From NCBI RefSeq assembly GCF_007750855.1, contig NZ_CP036291.1:434001-498000 (forward strand): a stretch of 64,000 bases of DNA. The letters run 5' to 3'. A program made the position numbers and the translations under genes. The number at the start of each line of letters is the position of its first letter. Position 1 is the first letter of the stretch. This stretch comes from Pirellulimonas nuda. GTDB lineage: Bacteria; Planctomycetota; Planctomycetia; Pirellulales; Lacipirellulaceae. Shown piece by piece: positions 13,645 through 26,045 of this stretch. The notes beneath the pieces were generated by a model. It did no database searches and had not been told where the DNA came from. It saw only the letters and a program-made list of their open reading frames with translations.

Positions 13645-14122
13645 CGTCGGTGCGTCCTCGAGGCGGTGCGGGCGCAAAACGGGTGGGTCGCCCCGCGGCG
13701 ACTGCCTGCATTCTATCACCCACGCCCGCCCAGCCAACGCAGACGCTCCGGCATCGCGTGCGCCGCTCGCCGCCGTGGCCAAAAATCATCGTCGCGGCCG
13801 ACCGGGCCCTCGCCGATAATGCGGGGTCCGTGCGCGCCGGTGCGAACGTCGCGGAGCGGGTGGTTCTTGTTGGCTTTTTAGGAGCGCGGGGTTTTGTCCG
13901 TTAGGTGTCCGTTAGGTGTCCGTTAGGTGTCCGTTAGGTGTTCGCTGGGTGTCCGCTGGGTGTCCGATGCGTCCCCCCAGAACCCCCTCGCTGGGGGCGA
14001 TCGACCCGCGGCGTGCCGGGTGCGGACCGCTTGTTTTGCGGGGTTCGAGCGGACGGGGGTGGGTTTTGTCCGAAAACCCGCCGCGGGAGAGGGGGACAAA
14101 ACGGACAAAAGTCGGCCGCGCC
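13645..14122. other. 478-base gene-free stretch with tandem and inverted repeats
   Basis: No convincing gene. Open frames here are codon-bias shadows. It holds an 11-base tandem array at 13896-13972, an outer inverted repeat TTTTGTCCGTT (13892-13902) with AACGGACAAAA (14099-14109), and a small hairpin GGGTTTT/AAAACCC near 14070-14090. Confidence 0.6.
13896..13972. repeat. seven-copy 11-base tandem repeat
   Basis: GTCCGTTAGGT is repeated exactly four times from 13896, followed by three diverging copies (GTTCGCTGGGT, GTCCGCTGGGT, GTCCGATGCGT) to 13972. The divergence increases to the right. The first copy overlaps the left arm of the larger TTTTGTCCGTT inverted repeat. The 11-base period is close to one helical turn. 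Confidence 0.92.
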
Positions 14123-19425: not shown

Positions 19426-19794
19426 CTAACCCAGCACCGCCCGACAGCGCTCGACCGTCTCGGGCTTCTCCAGCTCGAGCTTGCCGAACCCCCGCAGCGC
19501 GCCGACCTTCTCGGCGGCGTCTTGGTGCTCCGGGTAGTTGGTGATGAGCATTACCGGCAGCTCTGCGGTCGCCGGGTCGGCCTTGAGCTGCTTGATCACC
19601 TCGATTCCGTCGGAGTAGTCGGCGTCGAGCTTGCGGTTGACGACCGCCAGGTCGAAGCTCTGCTCCTTCAGCTTCGCGAGCGCATCGGCGGCCAGGTTCG
19701 CCTGGGCGACCTCCGCGCCGAAGTGCTTCAAAAAGAACCGCGTGAGCGAGGCGTGGTCGGGTCCGCAGTTGCCGATGTCGAGGACGCGCTTCAT
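19426..19794 (-). CDS. receiver-domain protein lacking the phosphoacceptor Asp
   Basis: About 122 residues from MKRVLDIGN (19794). It is a stand-alone CheY-like fold: alternating strands and helices, DLAVVNRKL at the third strand and LPVMLITNY at the fourth. The site that is normally Asp for phosphorylation is Asn (residue 53 from this start), and the N-terminal acidic pair is reduced to LDIGN. A Lys-containing GKLEL follows near the expected fifth strand. It therefore cannot be phosphorylated in the usual way and may work as a protein-interaction module. No kinase is adjacent. Confidence 0.75.
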   Translation of the reverse strand: MKRVLDIGNCGPDHASLTRFFLKHFGAEVAQANLAADALAKLKEQSFDLAVVNRKLDADYSDGIEVIKQLKADPATAELPVMLITNYPEHQDAAEKVGALRGFGKLELEKPETVERCRAVLG

Positions 19795-19828
19795 AGGGAA
19801 CACCTACCGATTAGCGGATGGACGGATT

Positions 19829-19981: not shown

Positions 19982-21727
19982 TTACTCGTCCTTCTTCTCG
20001 ATCGCGAACAAGTGCGTGCGGTTGGAGATGAACAGCACGTTGTCGACCACGATCGGCGTGCTGTAGACGCTGTTGCTCATGTTGATCTCGCCGAAGTGGG
20101 GCGTCATCTCGCCGCCGTCTTCCTTCATGGCCACCTTGGGGTCGGCCGAGTGGCGGAAGATGGCGACGTCGCCGTCTTCGTCGCCGATGTAGACCTTGCC
20201 GTCGACGATTAGCGGCGAGCCCCACGCCGCGGCGAACATGTCGTAGCTCCAGTTCTGCTTGCCGGTCTTGGGGTCGATGCAGTGGAAGATGCCGCTGAAG
20301 TCGGCGATGTACAGCACGCCGTCCTTGATGGCCACGGTGCCGCAGCTACGGTGCATGGTTTCCAGGTAGGTGTCGATCTCGCCGTCGTCGTTCCAGTCGG
20401 TCTCGCTGTAGTGCCACAGCGCGGCCGAGTTGGGGTTGGCGCGGGCGAAGTCGCCCTCTTCGGGCACCACGGCCTGGATCCGCTTGTGGGGGATGGTTTC
20501 GTTGGGGCTCTTGGAATTGAACGCCAGCTCGGGGCTCACGTCGCCACGCTTGGTGGGGTCGATGCACCACAGGTGGCCCACCCCTTCGCCGTGCTCGGGG
20601 TCTTGGCCTACGGCCACGTACACCAGCCCGTCGTGCACCACGGGGGTGGCGATGATGTTGTTCCGCGTGCCGCGGCCGCCGAGGATCCAGGTGCTTTCTT
20701 TGGGGTTGGCGTCGAACTTCCACAGCAGCTTGGCGCCCCCCTGGCCGTCGCCGGCGGGGTCGAAGCTGTAGACCCAGCCGTCGCCGCCGCCGAAGATCGC
20801 CTGCGGCTGGCCATCAATGACCGCGTAGGTGGGGCTCGACCACTGGCCGTGCAAGATGTTCTCGCCGGGGCTCTTGTCGGTCCACAGCAGCCGGCCGTCG
20901 TTCTTGTCCAGGGCGATAAAGCTGGGGGCGTCTGGCGCGGGGAGGTTGATGTGAGACTCGTCGAGGCCGTTGCTGGTGTTCACCAGCAGCGTGTCGCCGC
21001 AATCGGTGATGCTGCAACTGCACATGTTGTGCTGGCTGACGCCCAGCTCGTTCATCATGTCGAAGACCCACAGCACGTCGGCCTCGTTCTTCATGTCGTA
21101 CTCGGCGCCGGCCGAAGCGGCCTGGGCCTTGATCCTGGATTCTTCATCGGTCACCGCGCCGTCGTTCTCGCCGTCGCGGAAGCCCTCGGTGTCGACGCAG
21201 CGGACCTCGCCCCGGCTGGTGACGAACCACAGCCGGTCGCCTTGCACCAGCGGCGCGCAGCAGATGCCCTGCAGCGGCCAGTCGTGAACGCGGCCCGTCT
21301 TGAGCTTCTCGCTGGAGTGCTGCCAGAGGAACTCGCCGGTCTCTTGGTCGAACGCCAGCAGGCAGCCGAGGTCGACGTCGCCCGGGTACCGGGGCAGCCA
21401 GCCGCCGGAGTTGTTGGTTCCGACAAACGCCTTGCCGTCGGCCACCACGCAGTTTCCGTAGGTCTGCGACCCGAGCCGGGCGACCCACTTGATGTTCTTC
21501 GCGGTCGAGGGGTCCCACTCGCCGGTGCGGAAGTCGAACTCTCCTACGTTCCATTCGGTGGGCAGGTCGGTGGCTTCGGGGGTGTTGTTGCGCGTCGAGG
21601 AGCCCCCCCACTGGTTCCACTCGGAGGTGGGTTTGGCGGTGGCCGTGTCGCCGGCGGTAGCCCCCCAAGCGGGTGAGAGGCACGGCGATAAAGTGAGCGA
21701 GGCAAGCAGCAAGAAACGGATGGCCAT
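19982..21727 (-). CDS. secreted PQQ-like beta-propeller protein
   Basis: About 581 residues from MAIRFLLLASLTLSPCLSPAWGATA, a clear Sec signal ending AWGA. The rest is a WD-like eight-bladed PQQ-type propeller, with repeated blade units such as GKAFVGTNNSG, GVLYIADFSG and GKVYIGDEDGD, each followed by a strand ending in W or F. The blades read 'G-x-V/L-Y-I/V' and are rich in DG turns. Quinoprotein dehydrogenases bind PQQ with such a fold, but no PQQ-specific Cys pair or catalytic Asp is obvious, so binding is uncertain. Planctomycetes encode many; role unknown. It is codirectional with the next, larger propeller gene. Confidence 0.85.
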   Translation of the reverse strand: MAIRFLLLASLTLSPCLSPAWGATAGDTATAKPTSEWNQWGGSSTRNNTPEATDLPTEWNVGEFDFRTGEWDPSTAKNIKWVARLGSQTYGNCVVADGKAFVGTNNSGGWLPRYPGDVDLGCLLAFDQETGEFLWQHSSEKLKTGRVHDWPLQGICCAPLVQGDRLWFVTSRGEVRCVDTEGFRDGENDGAVTDEESRIKAQAASAGAEYDMKNEADVLWVFDMMNELGVSQHNMCSCSITDCGDTLLVNTSNGLDESHINLPAPDAPSFIALDKNDGRLLWTDKSPGENILHGQWSSPTYAVIDGQPQAIFGGGDGWVYSFDPAGDGQGGAKLLWKFDANPKESTWILGGRGTRNNIIATPVVHDGLVYVAVGQDPEHGEGVGHLWCIDPTKRGDVSPELAFNSKSPNETIPHKRIQAVVPEEGDFARANPNSAALWHYSETDWNDDGEIDTYLETMHRSCGTVAIKDGVLYIADFSGIFHCIDPKTGKQNWSYDMFAAAWGSPLIVDGKVYIGDEDGDVAIFRHSADPKVAMKEDGGEMTPHFGEINMSNSVYSTPIVVDNVLFISNRTHLFAIEKKDE

Positions 21728-21870: not shown

Positions 21871-24213
21871 TCAGTTCGGCGTCACACTCAGGTTGTCTAC
21901 GTAGAACTCCGCGTCCTTCGAGTCGCCAAACAGCCCAGGCGACCCCTGCAGATTGGGCGCCCGGTCTTCGATCGAGAGCGTCCACTCGGCGGGCTCTTCT
22001 TCGTCGCGCTTCCACACCTTGCCGAACACGCGGGCCACACCCGAATCGGCGTCGGGAACCGCCTTGACCTTCATCGTATACCAGGTGTCGGGCTCGAACT
22101 TCATGCTCACGGCGGCCTGGGTCCGCTTGTCGTGGGTGCACCAGCTATAGAGGCGAACCTCGTCGTTGGCGCCGAACAGCGAGAGGATGTACCGGCTGTT
22201 GATCAGCCCGGCGGCCGGCAGCTTCTGGGCCGAGTTGTTTGCGGCGGCGGGGAACTCCGGCTTGGCGACCGACGGGTCGACCTCCGCGCCGGTGCCGGTC
22301 TTCATCTTTACGTCCGCCTGGACCGTGTAGTCTGAGAGCTGGTCGGAGCCCATCCACATCTGGCTGCGGGTCCCCAACTTGGTGGTGGGGGCGCCGGGCT
22401 TGGTCGGCAGCTCCATCGGCTTGGCGATGAAATGATTGCCGGGCGTGCCGTCTCCTTCCTGCGCCTCGCGGATCACGTAGCGGACGCGGCCCTGGATCCA
22501 CGAGAGCGGAACGTCGTCTACCCCTTCGAAGTCGAACGACCACGGCAGTGGCGGGGTGATCCGCACGCGGCCTTGGCCCGACAGCTCGCCGATCTTGCAG
22601 GTGACCAAGGCGCACTCATGACCGGCGTCCGACGGGGCCTGGTAGAGCCCATCGGAAGAAACACTCCCCGGCCCGGCGGCCACCGCGAAGGTTACCTCGC
22701 TCGGCTTGGCCTCTCGAACAAAGTTGCCCTTGGCGTCAAACAGCCGGGCGCGGAACGGTTGGTCTTGGCCCGGTGTGAGCAGCGTCTCCCAAGGGACAAC
22801 CTGTACCTGGGCCGGCTCTCCGGGCGAGGCCGCGGCTGCCGTCTTCTTCACTTCGGCCGATCCCTTGTTGGCGTCGATCGACTCATCCGTGCCGATGCAG
22901 TACAGGTACTCCGAAGTCGGCAGGTAGATCCGCCCATCGGCCACGATCGGCGAGCCGTTTACCTCGTCGCGCGGCAGCCGGACCTTGGCCGCGATGTCCA
23001 CGCCATCGGCGGTCGGCTTGAGCGTGTACCAGGTCCCCTCATTGGTGCAGCAGAAGATCATGCCGTCCGCGTGCACCAGCGAGCCGCGCATCGCGCGGCC
23101 TAGCGTCTTGCGGGCGACCTCCTCTCCGGATTGAGCGTCGTAGACCAGCAGCTTGCCGGTGTCGGTGACGGCGTACACGCGGCCGTCGACCAGGATCGGG
23201 CCGCTCTTGCCGACCATCGCTTGGGGTTCGAGCCACAGCTCGTCCCCCAACTCCATGGCGCCGGTCTTGGTGCCGTCCAGCGCCGCCATCAGCCCCATGG
23301 TGCTGCCGACCACGTTCTCTTCACTCTGGCCGATGTAAACGCGACCGTCGGGCCCGACCACCGGGGAGGTGTTGATGCCGCGGCGCGACAGCGGGTAGCT
23401 CCACACCTGCTTGCCGGTGCCGGCCTGCAGCGCCCACGCCTTGCCGTCGCCCGAGCCGAAGACCAGCAGGTCCTGGCCGTCGAGTGTCACCAGGGCGGGC
23501 GAGCTGTAGGTGGTGTCCTGTGGGATCAACGAGGTGCCGGCCAGCCAGCGGAGCTCGCCGGTCTTCTTGTCGAAGGCCATGAAGCGGTGCGCCGGCTTGG
23601 CCATCAGGCCCCACTGCGGCGTGTCGCCCCAACCGATCACCACGGCGCTGGTGATGACGGTGTCCTTGTAGACGACCGGGAAGTTGGTGCGCCCGCCGTA
23701 CGTGCTGAGGAACCCGAATTCTTCGTGCAGGCTGCGCTCCCACTCTGGTTTGCCTGTCTTGCCGTCCAGGCAGCAGAAGTAGCCGCAAACCCCCTGGGCG
23801 TAGACGCGGCCGGTGGCGGGGTCGCAGACCACGCTCGACCAGCCGACGCGGGTGTCTGGAACGTCGGACAGGTAGACGTTGAAGACGTGCTCCCACAGGA
23901 CTTTGCCGGTTGCGGCGTCTGCGCAGACTACTTTCTCTGCTTCCAGCTCGGTGCCGGGCTTGTCGCGGCACAAGGTGTACAGCTTGCCGTCAAAGACGAC
24001 GGGGGTCGAACGTCCCGCGAGCGCTTCGCTCTTCCACAGCAGGTTGCTCCCTTGGCCGCCGCGGGGGTTCCAGGTTTCGGGCAAGTCCGTGTCTTGCGAC
24101 ATGCCGTCGTACTCGGGCCCGCGCCAGTTGGGCCAGTCGGCGGCGCCGGCGCTAGCAGAGAAGCTGGCAAGCAGAAGAAGCACAACGGAGGTGCGAAGCA
24201 AAGGCGAGGTCAT
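21871..24213 (-). CDS. secreted PQQ-like beta-propeller with C-terminal lectin-like domain
   Basis: 780 residues. Signal peptide (TSVVLLLLASFSASAGA), then ADWPNWRGPEYDGMS, the usual opening of planctomycete propellers. Blades carry DGKLYTLCRD, DGRVYIGQSEENV and DGRIYLPTSEY units to about residue 460. An Ala/Pro linker and a domain of Ig-like strands (TFAVAAGPGSVSSDGLYQAPS) lead to a C-terminal concanavalin-like part beginning WSFDFEGVDDVPLSW, with YTVQADVKMKTG and WYTMKVKAVPD, resembling 3-keto-glucoside hydrolase (DUF1080)-type or laminin-G-like folds. It would act outside the cytoplasmic membrane, perhaps on glycans. Enzymatic activity is not demonstrated by the sequence. Confidence 0.85.
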   Translation of the reverse strand: MTSPLLRTSVVLLLLASFSASAGAADWPNWRGPEYDGMSQDTDLPETWNPRGGQGSNLLWKSEALAGRSTPVVFDGKLYTLCRDKPGTELEAEKVVCADAATGKVLWEHVFNVYLSDVPDTRVGWSSVVCDPATGRVYAQGVCGYFCCLDGKTGKPEWERSLHEEFGFLSTYGGRTNFPVVYKDTVITSAVVIGWGDTPQWGLMAKPAHRFMAFDKKTGELRWLAGTSLIPQDTTYSSPALVTLDGQDLLVFGSGDGKAWALQAGTGKQVWSYPLSRRGINTSPVVGPDGRVYIGQSEENVVGSTMGLMAALDGTKTGAMELGDELWLEPQAMVGKSGPILVDGRVYAVTDTGKLLVYDAQSGEEVARKTLGRAMRGSLVHADGMIFCCTNEGTWYTLKPTADGVDIAAKVRLPRDEVNGSPIVADGRIYLPTSEYLYCIGTDESIDANKGSAEVKKTAAAASPGEPAQVQVVPWETLLTPGQDQPFRARLFDAKGNFVREAKPSEVTFAVAAGPGSVSSDGLYQAPSDAGHECALVTCKIGELSGQGRVRITPPLPWSFDFEGVDDVPLSWIQGRVRYVIREAQEGDGTPGNHFIAKPMELPTKPGAPTTKLGTRSQMWMGSDQLSDYTVQADVKMKTGTGAEVDPSVAKPEFPAAANNSAQKLPAAGLINSRYILSLFGANDEVRLYSWCTHDKRTQAAVSMKFEPDTWYTMKVKAVPDADSGVARVFGKVWKRDEEEPAEWTLSIEDRAPNLQGSPGLFGDSKDAEFYVDNLSVTPN

Positions 24214-24754
24214 GTATCGGGGCCTGCGGGCTAAGGAGGAAGTCAGAGCAGCGGCGTCACAACCGAGAATACCAGCGCCGACCGCGACCCACCATTATAG
24301 GCGCCGGGGCGGCCGGGCAACCGTTACATCTTGACCACCTTCCGTACGCGTTAAATCCTTCGCAACAGTCGTCGTAAACCATTTGTGGGAAAACGGTTGC
24401 GAGCACTCAAGGGTGATTTTGACGCCCGCCGATAGGTGCTACTGTCGGTCGCTGTGGTCACCCCCACAGCCGAGCGACAAACGACCCTGCGCGTCCGATC
24501 GCCGGCCCGGACTGAATCGAGCCAAGGACTGGCTCGACTGGCGACGACGCTCCCCCGCAGTGCGGCTTACGGATATCCAGCCCGCTTTCCTCTGACTCCC
24601 GGTACTTATAAGTGCCCTTCACGCCGCGGCAGACGCCCGGGGTGATCGACCAGTGGTGGTCGCCGCGTGCTCGCGTGGAGCGGCATCGCGCGTTAGCGGA
24701 AGTCGGCAGGTTGTGGACTGGAATCGGGACGCCGTGCTTAGAAGGAGTCTTGAG
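24214..24754. other. 541-base gene-free stretch with small hairpins
   Basis: No convincing gene. It separates divergent genes, so it should contain both promoters; none stands out. Two perfect hairpins are visible: GCTGTGG/CCACAGC (24451-24470) and TCGAGCCA/TGGCTCGA (24517-24537). The second half may be a long leader for the Cys-rich gene. Confidence 0.5.
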
Positions 24755-25876
24755 ATGAAGTTGAACGTATTGGCAGCGCTTATGATGAGCGCCTGTCTGG
24801 TCGGACCCGCCAACGGCGGTCTGCTGGACGGATGTAAGAAGTCGAGCTGCTGCGAGCCTTGTTGCGGCTGCCCCAGCGATTGCTGCGCCAGCGACTGCTG
24901 CGAGCCCTCGTGCGGCTGCCCCAGCGACTGCGGCTCCTGCTGTGGTTCGAAGAAGGGTGGTTTGCTGAGCAAGTTGTTCGGCGGCTGCAAGAGCAAGGGT
25001 TGCGGCGACTGCTGTGACCCCAGCTGCGGCTGCCCCAGCGATTGCTGCGCCAGCGACTGCTGCTGCGAGCCCTCGTGCGGCTGCCCCAGCGACTGCGGCT
25101 CTTGCTGTGGTTCGAAGAAGGGCGGGCTGCTGAGCAAGCTGTTCGGCGGCTGCAAGAACAAGGGCTGCAGCGACTGCTGTGACCCGAGCTGTGGTTGCCC
25201 GAGCGACTGCTGCTCGAACAACTGCTGCGAGCCGAGCTGTGGCTGCCCGAGCGATTGCTGCTCGAACGGCTGCTGCGAGCCCTCGTGCGGCTGCCCCAGC
25301 GACTGCGGCTCTTGCTGCAGCTCGAAGAAGGGCGGTCTGCTGAGCAAGCTGTTCAGCGGCTGCAAGAAGAACGACTGCTGCGATTGCTGTGACCCGAGCT
25401 GTGGTTGCCCGAGCGACTGCTGCTCGAACAACTGCTGCGAGCCGAGCTGTGGCTGCCCGAGCGATTGCTGCTCGAACGGCTGCTGCGAGCCGAGCTGTGG
25501 CTGCCCCAGCGACTGTGGGACTTGCTGCAGCTCGAAGAAGAGCTGCCTGCTGGACAAGTTGTTCGGCGGCTGCAAGAAGAACAGCTGCTGTGACAGCTGC
25601 TGCGAGCCGAGCTGTGGCTGCCCCAGCGACTGCTGTGGCAACGGCTGCTGCGAGCCCAGCTGTGCCTGTGACCCCTCGTGCGGCTGCCCCAGCGATTGCT
25701 GTGCTTCCGCCTCGGGTTGCTGCAGCGGCTCGATGAGCGCTCCGGCCGCCGCGCCGGCCCCGACCCCGGTCAAGGTCCAAGGGGAACCCTCCCCGATGCC
25801 GCCGGCGCCGATGGCCGACCCGAACGCCGCGATCGGACGTCAGCGTGACGTGGTTCGCACCTCGTTCGCTCGGTAG
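24755..25876 (+). CDS. secreted cysteine-rich tandem-repeat protein
   Basis: 373 residues; AAGGAG lies seven bases before the ATG at 24755. After a signal peptide (MKLNVLAALMMSACLVGPANG) comes a region of about 290 residues built from twelve CGCPSDC units, separated by short spacers (CASD, CSNN, CSNG, CEPS, CDPS). Four amphipathic inserts of the form KKGGLLSKLFGGCK interrupt the units at roughly even spacing. Cysteine is about a quarter of this region, so dense disulfide cross-linking or metal binding is likely. The last 60 residues are Pro/Ala-rich and end in TSFAR. No family recognised. A structural wall or stalk role is plausible because planctomycete walls were described as Cys-rich protein, but that is inference. 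Confidence 0.85.
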   Translation: MKLNVLAALMMSACLVGPANGGLLDGCKKSSCCEPCCGCPSDCCASDCCEPSCGCPSDCGSCCGSKKGGLLSKLFGGCKSKGCGDCCDPSCGCPSDCCASDCCCEPSCGCPSDCGSCCGSKKGGLLSKLFGGCKNKGCSDCCDPSCGCPSDCCSNNCCEPSCGCPSDCCSNGCCEPSCGCPSDCGSCCSSKKGGLLSKLFSGCKKNDCCDCCDPSCGCPSDCCSNNCCEPSCGCPSDCCSNGCCEPSCGCPSDCGTCCSSKKSCLLDKLFGGCKKNSCCDSCCEPSCGCPSDCCGNGCCEPSCACDPSCGCPSDCCASASGCCSGSMSAPAAAPAPTPVKVQGEPSPMPPAPMADPNAAIGRQRDVVRTSFAR

Positions 25877-25908: not shown

Positions 25909-25951
25909 CGCCCGCCCTGGGAGCTTCGGCACCCGGGGCGGGCGTTTTTTT
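25909..25951 (+). terminator. strong intrinsic terminator after Cys-rich gene
   Basis: CGCCCGCCC (25909-25917) pairs with GGGCGGGCG (25936-25944), with extra pairing inside, and is followed directly by seven T's (25945-25951). It starts 33 bases after the stop codon. It is the clearest rho-independent terminator in the window and suggests the Cys-rich gene is highly expressed as a single-gene transcript. Confidence 0.92.
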
Positions 25952-25953
25952 GT

Positions 25954-26045
25954 TGGTCAGTCGTCAGTCGTCAGTTGTCCGTTGTCCGTTGATTGCGCCC
26001 CCTCATCGCCCTGCGCGTCCAACGGACCACGGACCACGGACAACC
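25954..26045. repeat. intergenic inverted repeat (GTCCGTTGTCCGTTG family)
   Basis: Left arm: tandem GTCAGTC and GTCCGTT units (25956-25991). Right arm: CAACGGACCACGGACCACG and GACAACC (26020-26045). The arms are imperfect reverse complements, and the left arm is itself a 7-base tandem array. It follows the terminator directly. Confidence 0.75.

Follow-up and report, generated by a model that had tools for sequence, protein, structure and literature searches.

Computational analysis of a Cys-rich gene of Pirellulimonas nuda and its relatives established a family of proteins with two conserved ends and a block pattern of charge, a structured RNA in the leader of many of the genes and a linkage of these genes to genes for beta-propeller proteins. 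The gene lies in a stretch of 64,000 nucleotides that was analysed as a whole (C1:434001-498000, hereafter the window, to which coordinates refer unless another locus is named). We consider the chances about even that its product is an exported structural protein, which would be locked by disulfides into an insoluble matrix of the envelope (wall) and would be under post-transcriptional control.

The Cys-rich gene and its protein

The gene (24755-25876, plus strand) is an open frame for 373 amino acids, which profiles of both ends assign to type 1 of the family. Cys accounts for 95 of the 373 residues (25.5%) and Pro for 36, and His is absent from the composition; among the window's 331 stop-to-stop frames with 100 codons or more, the runner-up in Cys share reaches 12%. 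An export (signal) sequence is predicted at residues 1-21 (24755-24817, plus strand) from its conservation across the order in an N-terminal alignment of 35 sequences (A3), so that the signal peptide of the sequence-only reading stands as a conserved export-type N-terminus from which export and the site of cleavage would follow. The repeat region (residues 27-326; 24833-25732, plus strand) has 94 Cys in 300 residues, and an exact count returned the twelve CGCPSDC words and the four inserts, starting at residues 66, 121, 191 and 261, that had been read from the sequence. It is followed by a conserved C-terminal tail (residues 329-373; 25739-25873, plus strand) that is unique in its own genome. 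The DNA is tandemly repeated, as had also been noticed, with periods that include 48, 165, 210 and 375 bases. Between repeat copies most codons are identical, fewer are synonymous and some are replaced (56, 8 and 6 of 70 in one example), and these differences fit homogenisation followed by drift. The protein was described earlier as belonging to no recognised named family and, indeed, no match to Pfam, NCBIfam or PDB sequences was found up to E=1; an AlphaFold model made with five sequences had a mean pLDDT of 41 and offered no usable fold.

The ribosome binding site agaaggag (24740-24747, plus strand) that had been noticed is real, and an AGGAG-like site precedes all 54 extracted family genes (46 of type 1 and 8 of type 2). 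The claim of a strong terminator fared less well: a long G+C stem followed by seven T (25909-25951, plus strand) is visible by eye, but a terminator scan returned one terminator-like site against a shuffle mean of 1.4, which is statistically not special. A scan for sigma-70-type promoters gave no match. High expression, which the sequence-only reading took from these signs, is a prediction. A palindrome around ACTTATAAGT (24601-24616, plus strand), seen upstream of the gene in an alignment of six loci (A6) and partly kept in near relatives, has a core that occurs once in the window with 0 expected. Beyond the terminator-like stem lies an inverted repeat of TTGTCCGTTGTCCGTTG-like units (25968-26043; 4 matches against 0.01 expected), and an 11-base tandem repeat elsewhere in the window (13895-13966) shares a similar core with these units.

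A family defined by its conserved ends

The Cys-rich proteins form a true family, which is well supported and not an artefact of repeats or composition. With the whole protein as query, matches were obtained in 104 of 296 Pirellulales genomes, and a close-relative scan of a contig collection of 84,980 species returned five loci from named species or MAGs, all planctomycetal, Botrimarina hoheduenensis and B. colliarenosi among them. Composition alone might produce matches between Cys repeats, and each end was therefore searched separately with the repeats left out, as the sequence-only reading had proposed. A first tail profile of 18 sequences (A1), with invariant P, P, D, P, A and R, matched the P. 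nuda genome once (E=6e-20), the next best match having E=0.43. Of its 26 hits outside the order two were inspected, and both proved to be enzyme-like frames (480-482 codons, 9-11 Cys) and were rejected as false. A wider tail profile of 35 sequences (A4) matched 160 of the 296 genomes (125 of the 205 of good quality), and the N-terminal profile A3, which spans 34 residues, matched 228 of the 296, 174 of the 205 and 106 of 121 genera, usually once per genome among the genomes listed. By this profile the P. nuda protein is among the more divergent members (E=5e-8). The homologues for which the sequence-only reading had asked are thus present in relatives, and their frames are unbroken in the related loci inspected, with the exception of one near a contig end. 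That exception (L148), whose frame breaks soon after the start, is one of ten loci found with the N-terminal profile that are absent from the profile itself; the other nine encode proteins with 18-28% Cys, and four further such loci encode proteins with 14-23% Cys.

The family is centred on the order. A class-wide draw of 397 genomes gave 116 N-terminal matches, 114 of them in Pirellulales; with nine Pirellulales listed as lacking a match, this corresponds to 114 of 123, assuming that the list is ordered as it appears. The only two matching genomes outside Pirellulales in this draw did so weakly (E 1.6e-4 and 1.9e-4). At the locus of one of these two (L153, in genome G467 of family f22) we observed a frame of 161 codons with 25% Cys and a basic KKKCGWFKKMCRKFKKKK insert; because this protein is Cys-rich and has a basic insert, distant relatives outside the order are possible.

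The family consensus consists of an export-type start, MKW...GALVLS..LCSQSFG, a mature start, FELLDRMLG, and a tail, PPAP..DPSA...R.VV.AS..VR, and the Cys words between them vary by lineage (CGCPSDC, CCADPSCCA, CCEASCGCADDC and CCEPACDAG). Standard homology searches probably miss the family, as its repeats are of low complexity, their wording depends on lineage and only the two ends are conserved. We found no publication on the family or on the leader RNA among titles and abstract openings, and Hieu 2008, Liesack 1986 and Mahajan 2020 may name members under locus tags. Across the whole family the first 21 residues are as strongly conserved as the rest of the protein at its best, with 33-residue matches down to E ~4e-21. 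Such strong conservation of a signal sequence seems unusual and may point to an unusual route of export or to a separate function of the sequence itself.

A tail-less paralogue (type 2) with 49 Cys in 217 codons and with basic inserts was observed in the P. nuda genome itself (C1:5865358-5866011; L134:9358-10011), and this shorter type was also found in other Pirellulales genomes. Another small Cys-rich protein, apparently exported, is encoded about 4 kb from a family gene at L068:14028-14375 (minus strand). For the counts given here and below, L016, L019 and L020 were removed as duplicates of L003, L002 and L018; L065 was counted as type 1 and not as type 2; and L081, which is outside the type-1 set, was included in the charge, inverted-repeat, covariance-search and loop counts.

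Basic inserts and a block pattern of charge

The four inserts of the P. nuda protein follow the pattern KK[GS][GC]LL[SD]KLF[GS]GCK and occupy residues 66-79 (24950-24991), 121-134 (25115-25156), 191-204 (25325-25366) and 261-274 (25535-25576), all on the plus strand. LL-x-KLF-type inserts were found by pattern in 51 of 54 proteins, at most four in each, and were lacking in L059, L077 and L079. In 13 loci of the organism's own family (f1, by kinship Lacipirellulaceae; L059 and L068 were excluded from the comparison for having fewer than two inserts) insert identity was 75% within a protein and 46% between proteins, whereas in six loci of f15 the values were 36% and 43%, so that there the inserts are not more alike within proteins. 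The sequence-only reading had called the inserts amphipathic, which was not borne out: they are basic and hydrophobic, and their hydrophobic moments were no greater than those of shuffles (p 0.44-0.62 for the four of P. nuda; 5% below 0.05 among 107 inserts of the family). When 14-residue windows were taken without preselecting inserts, those with at least four LIFMV residues had a mean charge of +2.61 and those with none a mean charge of -1.41. The LIFMV-rich windows had the higher charge in 52 of 53 proteins; in 52 of 55, with both types included, the association exceeded that in shuffled sequences. The chain therefore alternates acidic Cys blocks with basic-hydrophobic blocks.

A structured leader RNA upstream of family genes

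Upstream of many family genes, and at 24491-24550 (plus strand) in the window, lies a three-stem hairpin that is a previously uncatalogued structured RNA, well supported by strong covariation and by a covariance model; Rfam 15 gave no match to 24214-24800 up to E=5. An upstream alignment of six f1 loci revealed the inverted repeat TCGAGYCA-N5-TGRCTCGA (24517-24537, plus strand), which forms the apical stem-loop. Of 60 family genes, 19 have an exact copy upstream and 43 a copy with at most three mismatches; among 300 base-shuffled leaders there were two inverted repeats at three mismatches and none better. The bases that flank it form two additional stems. An untrimmed alignment of 44 sequences (A7) predicts the apical stem only, since the linker varies in length, and sequences were therefore trimmed for the covariation count: 20 were cut to their predicted hairpin ends and 17 of these, of similar geometry among the 44 available, were aligned with MAFFT without reference to structure. 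In these 17 sequences 95.1% of cells were paired and 10 of the 21 pairs showed changes on both sides. The covariation score was 0.370, against 0.047-0.111 when the structure was slid, and none of 500 shuffles scored as high by any measure. An alignment fitted to the model has changes on both sides in 17 of 21 pairs; this figure is biased towards the model, and seven of the matches behind it have E>0.1.

The covariance model built from the 17 sequences was searched against 72 sources (1.40 Mb). At E<0.05 it gave 45 matches, each in a different locus and each preceding a family gene on that gene's strand. Of the 61 family loci 45 thus have a match, and 28 of the matches are outside the sequences of the model; as most of these 28 were already known by the inverted repeat, the search tests the outer stems and not the loop. 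The 11 other loci searched, which include nine of type 2 (eight from other genomes and one from P. nuda), gave no match at E<0.05. Weaker matches were present at the expected place in L115, L150 and L130 (E 0.18-0.7), and one of similar strength was not at the expected place (L064:14164-14219, E 0.15). With 16 of the 61 family loci, eleven of them from f15, giving no match at E<0.05, the RNA is not essential to the family. When flanks were swapped between families, the native 5' and 3' pair folded better than the mean of the swaps in all 42 cases; taken singly, p was below 0.05 in five of the 42 and the native pair beat every swap in one. Folding energies of single sequences stood out only modestly (z -0.7 to -2.8 for five sequences). 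L155, whose element equals that of L154, was omitted from the folding sets and still counted in the inverted-repeat, model and loop tallies.

The inverted repeat ends 97-113 nt before the start codon in f7 and 157-249 nt before it in other families. In f7 the RNA stays beside the Cys-rich gene although the propeller genes described below are not adjacent, which shows that the element belongs to the Cys-rich gene, with which it is probably co-transcribed. In one f7 genome a family gene also has a cobalamin riboswitch nearby (L027:712-991, minus strand).

In 42 of 44 loci the apical loop reads A(N)GGA. This motif, when carried by a hairpin, is the signature of CsrA, a regulator conserved in Planctomycetes among other phyla according to the parts of PMC10729762 consulted, and the simplest reading makes the leader RNA a candidate target of CsrA or of a protein like it. 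The feature that it has in common with the CsrA-binding hairpins of mRNA leaders is the A(N)GGA of the loop; unlike them, it is larger, has three stems and a one-sided bulge, and covaries extensively. A further A(N)GGA, located at the ribosome site, occurs in 29 of 43 loci with the element and in 42 of all 59 loci, and thus is not enriched in the former. CTCGATG at the start codon was found in 21 of 43 loci with the element and in 1 of 16 others. Pairing of the apical arm with the start codon, as in a switch, was considered and is not favoured: the hairpin was kept in 35 of 44 predicted folds and the start region was paired in 4. That the element at 24491-24550 acts as DNA, a palindromic operator, and not as RNA appears very unlikely to us. 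Its apical arms are an inverted repeat of strongly conserved sequence and it sits between two divergent genes in P. nuda and at many other loci, as an operator might; yet the outer two stems keep their pairing through many double changes, with frequent G-U pairs, and in f7 the element follows the Cys-rich gene and its strand where divergent genes are not adjacent.

Linkage to beta-propeller genes

Three conserved neighbours lie on the minus strand upstream of the Cys-rich gene. The nearest, divergent from it, encodes a BamB-like beta-propeller, apparently exported (PQQ_b, 21871-24213; Pfam PQQ_2 and synteny); a second BamB-like propeller, also apparently exported, follows (PQQ_a, 19982-21727; Pfam PQQ_2, synteny and a fold match), and then a stand-alone, CheY-like receiver domain (19426-19803; Pfam Response_reg), of which a counterpart open frame was seen in 21 of 28 other loci compared. 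PQQ_a was divergent from the adjoining Cys-rich gene in 36 of 59 scored loci, that of P. nuda included, and was not near in 23; these loci are a non-random sample in which some contigs end nearby, and L064 and L148 were left unscored because the Cys-rich gene was below the calling thresholds. PQQ_b was also detected in these 36 loci, apart from L145 and L157. By family, PQQ_a was adjacent in 15 of 15 loci of f1, 11 of 17 of f15, 2 of 4 of f2, 2 of 2 each of f12 and f17 and 1 of 1 each of f4, f13, f16 and f18, and it was not within the fetched stretch in any of eight loci of f7, two of f3 and one each of f6, f9, f11, f19 and f20. In four f7 genomes and one f2 genome it was found 12-20 kb off on the same contig. 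PQQ_a was detected in all but one of 21 genomes tested and is thus a widespread gene in itself.

Five Cys of PQQ_a are invariant in 31 of 31 aligned sequences, and a SQHNMCSCS stretch is conserved. The PQQ_a model (pLDDT 58, pTM 0.65) has BamB as its best PDB fold matches, with tetrathionate hydrolase and quinoprotein dehydrogenases lower down. By this model PQQ_a would have the beta-propeller fold in common with BamB, from which it differs in being longer and only ~14% identical, and against the NCBIfam equivalog for BamB (TIGR03300) it scored 41.4 bits, below the cut-off of 285.2. With its invariant Cys, PQQ_a may have a part in redox chemistry or in assembly.

Away from the propellers, on the far side of the Cys-rich gene, the P. 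nuda locus encodes a TPR protein, a hypothetical protein, a cobalamin adenosyltransferase, an ammonium transporter and P-II, and none of these five was present at the same threshold in any of the 58 other loci; relatives of P-II with 37-42% identity fell below the threshold in L063, L064, L124 and L147. Other f1 loci have, on this far side, NadA (9 of 28) or a FliN-type gene (11 of 28), the 28 being the others compared with L048, and further recurrent neighbours are a weak cupin match and an aspartate decarboxylase. Gene order is thus kept on the far side in part of f1 only and on the propeller side across nine families. In one f7 genome, eight genes near the Cys-rich gene, most of them toward the propellers, include P-II, Fer2, MoeA, a methyltransferase and the like, with one unmatched, and we saw no link among them.

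Comparison with known Cys-rich proteins

Two groups of Cys-rich proteins from elsewhere invite comparison. The keratin-associated proteins of animal hair carry CC-x-P-x-C words and serve as a disulfide cross-linked matrix. The P. nuda protein resembles them in CC-x-P-x-C-like words and differs in being bacterial, in its export sequence, basic inserts and conserved tail and in having no Pfam match, so the likeness is presumably convergent. OmcA and OmcB of chlamydiae, which belong to the PVC group, are Cys-rich outer membrane proteins of a disulfide-stabilised envelope; the Cys-rich protein differs from them in that it has no Pfam or NCBIfam match.

Nearer to P. nuda are the YTV proteins, described in the parts of PMC8567305 and PMC5287468 consulted as Cys-rich, specific to planctomycetes and major constituents of wall preparations, and one of them is named in PMC10632474 among essential genes almost restricted to planctomycetes. 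The YTV (PF07639) wall proteins and the Cys-rich protein are alike in being exported (as predicted for the latter), repetitive, Cys-rich and planctomycetal. No YTV domain was found in the 373-residue protein, for which Pfam gave no match up to E=1, and the YTV matches of the P. nuda genome are at C1:688k, 5693k and 6529k, with none in the window. The YTV protein inspected in that genome has 64 Cys in a frame of 537 codons, or about 12%, against 25.5% in the Cys-rich protein, and the two differ in repeat words, inserts and tail.

A disulfide-bonded envelope protein and its alternatives

The sequence-only reading had suggested a component of the Cys- and Pro-rich planctomycete wall, and the analysis supports this in part. 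The composition of the protein, high in both Cys and Pro, fits the description of the planctomycete envelope in PMC3035269 as rich in Pro and Cys, stabilised by disulfides and resistant to SDS. The 1986 envelope work covered the Pirella/Planctomyces group, judging by its title as cited in PMC2754498. Of the traits of a Cys-rich planctomycete envelope protein, three are found here: the export-type N-terminus, from which export would follow, the richness in Cys and Pro and the occurrence in planctomycetes, the last judged by the class-wide draw and the close-relative scan of the contig collection; disulfide cross-links and a place in the wall are predictions. The P. nuda genome encodes VKOR, an oxidant for disulfide formation, and, with export into an oxidising space, this makes disulfides likelier than free thiols or metal clusters. 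Two considerations temper a wall role. Peptidoglycan was later detected in planctomycetes (PMC10632474), so that a protein wall need not bear load, which speaks against a wall of protein alone; and, as YTV matches are present elsewhere in the genome and YTV proteins are named in wall preparations, the wall role may already be filled.

Each of the alternatives accounts for part of this pattern. An exported protein akin to metallothionein, whose CC, CxC and CGC words would bind zinc, copper or cadmium as an extracytoplasmic buffer or store, would explain the very high Cys density and the CC and CxC spacing. We regard it as quite unlikely: the export-type N-terminus and the VKOR oxidant lead one to expect oxidised cysteines outside, the protein has no His and no Pfam or NCBIfam match, metallothionein families included, and a Pro-rich tail and basic inserts would be unexpected in a simple metal buffer. 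An apparently secreted polymer that is repetitive, Cys-rich and patterned in charge, with a conserved leader RNA, could be a disulfide-rich glue or fibre of the surface outside the wall, or of a holdfast or stalk, and a holdfast substance is described for sessile Rhodopirellula in the part of PMC2754498 consulted. An adhesive also seems quite improbable, as there is no specific tie to holdfast genes and the widely common neighbours are beta-propellers and a receiver domain.

Finally, the protein might be a polyprotein from which cationic, membrane-active peptides, the KKGGLLSKLFGGCK-type inserts, are excised to act on other bacteria; the inserts are short, basic and hydrophobic and are present in 2-4 copies in many members. 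This we consider extremely unlikely. The inserts have no amphipathic moment above shuffles and are embedded in Cys repeats, the recurrent neighbours identified (propellers, receiver, NadA, FliN-type, a weak cupin match and aspartate decarboxylase) include no processing protease or transporter, and near-universal conservation across an order is unlike that of a weapon gene. Over metal binding, adhesives and peptide precursors we favour, with a confidence near the midpoint of the scale, a further, Pirellulales-centred protein of the envelope held by disulfide bonds.

Such an envelope protein would work as follows. Export would bring it into an oxidising space, where, thanks to the alternation of acidic Cys-rich segments and basic-hydrophobic inserts, the molecules could bind each other or acidic material of the surface, to be cross-linked afterwards by oxidation of their cysteines. 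The conserved tail may attach or orient the protein, and the repeats would be tolerant, cross-linkable filler whose wording drifts by lineage and is partly homogenised within each gene. The conserved leader hairpin with its A(N)GGA loop would set expression in part, and the propellers may take part in assembly. We put forward as rather unlikely a more ambitious version, in which a system for a disulfide-locked envelope matrix of polyampholyte character extends throughout Pirellulales and forms a main component of the wall beside YTV. It would comprise an exported Cys/Pro polymer of alternating acidic-Cys and basic-hydrophobic blocks, two dedicated BamB-like propellers, exported and with conserved cysteines, that help in its assembly or oxidation, and a new class of leader RNA through which a global regulator would act on its translation.

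Significance for the planctomycete wall

Debate over the nature of the planctomycete wall goes back decades, as PMC10632474 recounts. Cys-rich exported planctomycete proteins are known as a kind; new with respect to the libraries searched are this family, its conserved ends, its link to the propeller genes and the leader RNA. A family present in most of the Pirellulales genomes sampled and without a Pfam or NCBIfam match is a concrete candidate for a wall component. The leader RNA is independent evidence for regulated expression of the Cys-rich protein, besides being a new structured RNA itself. If the proposed matrix system is true, it would be a main part of the Cys- and Pro-rich wall that was described chemically in the 1980s.
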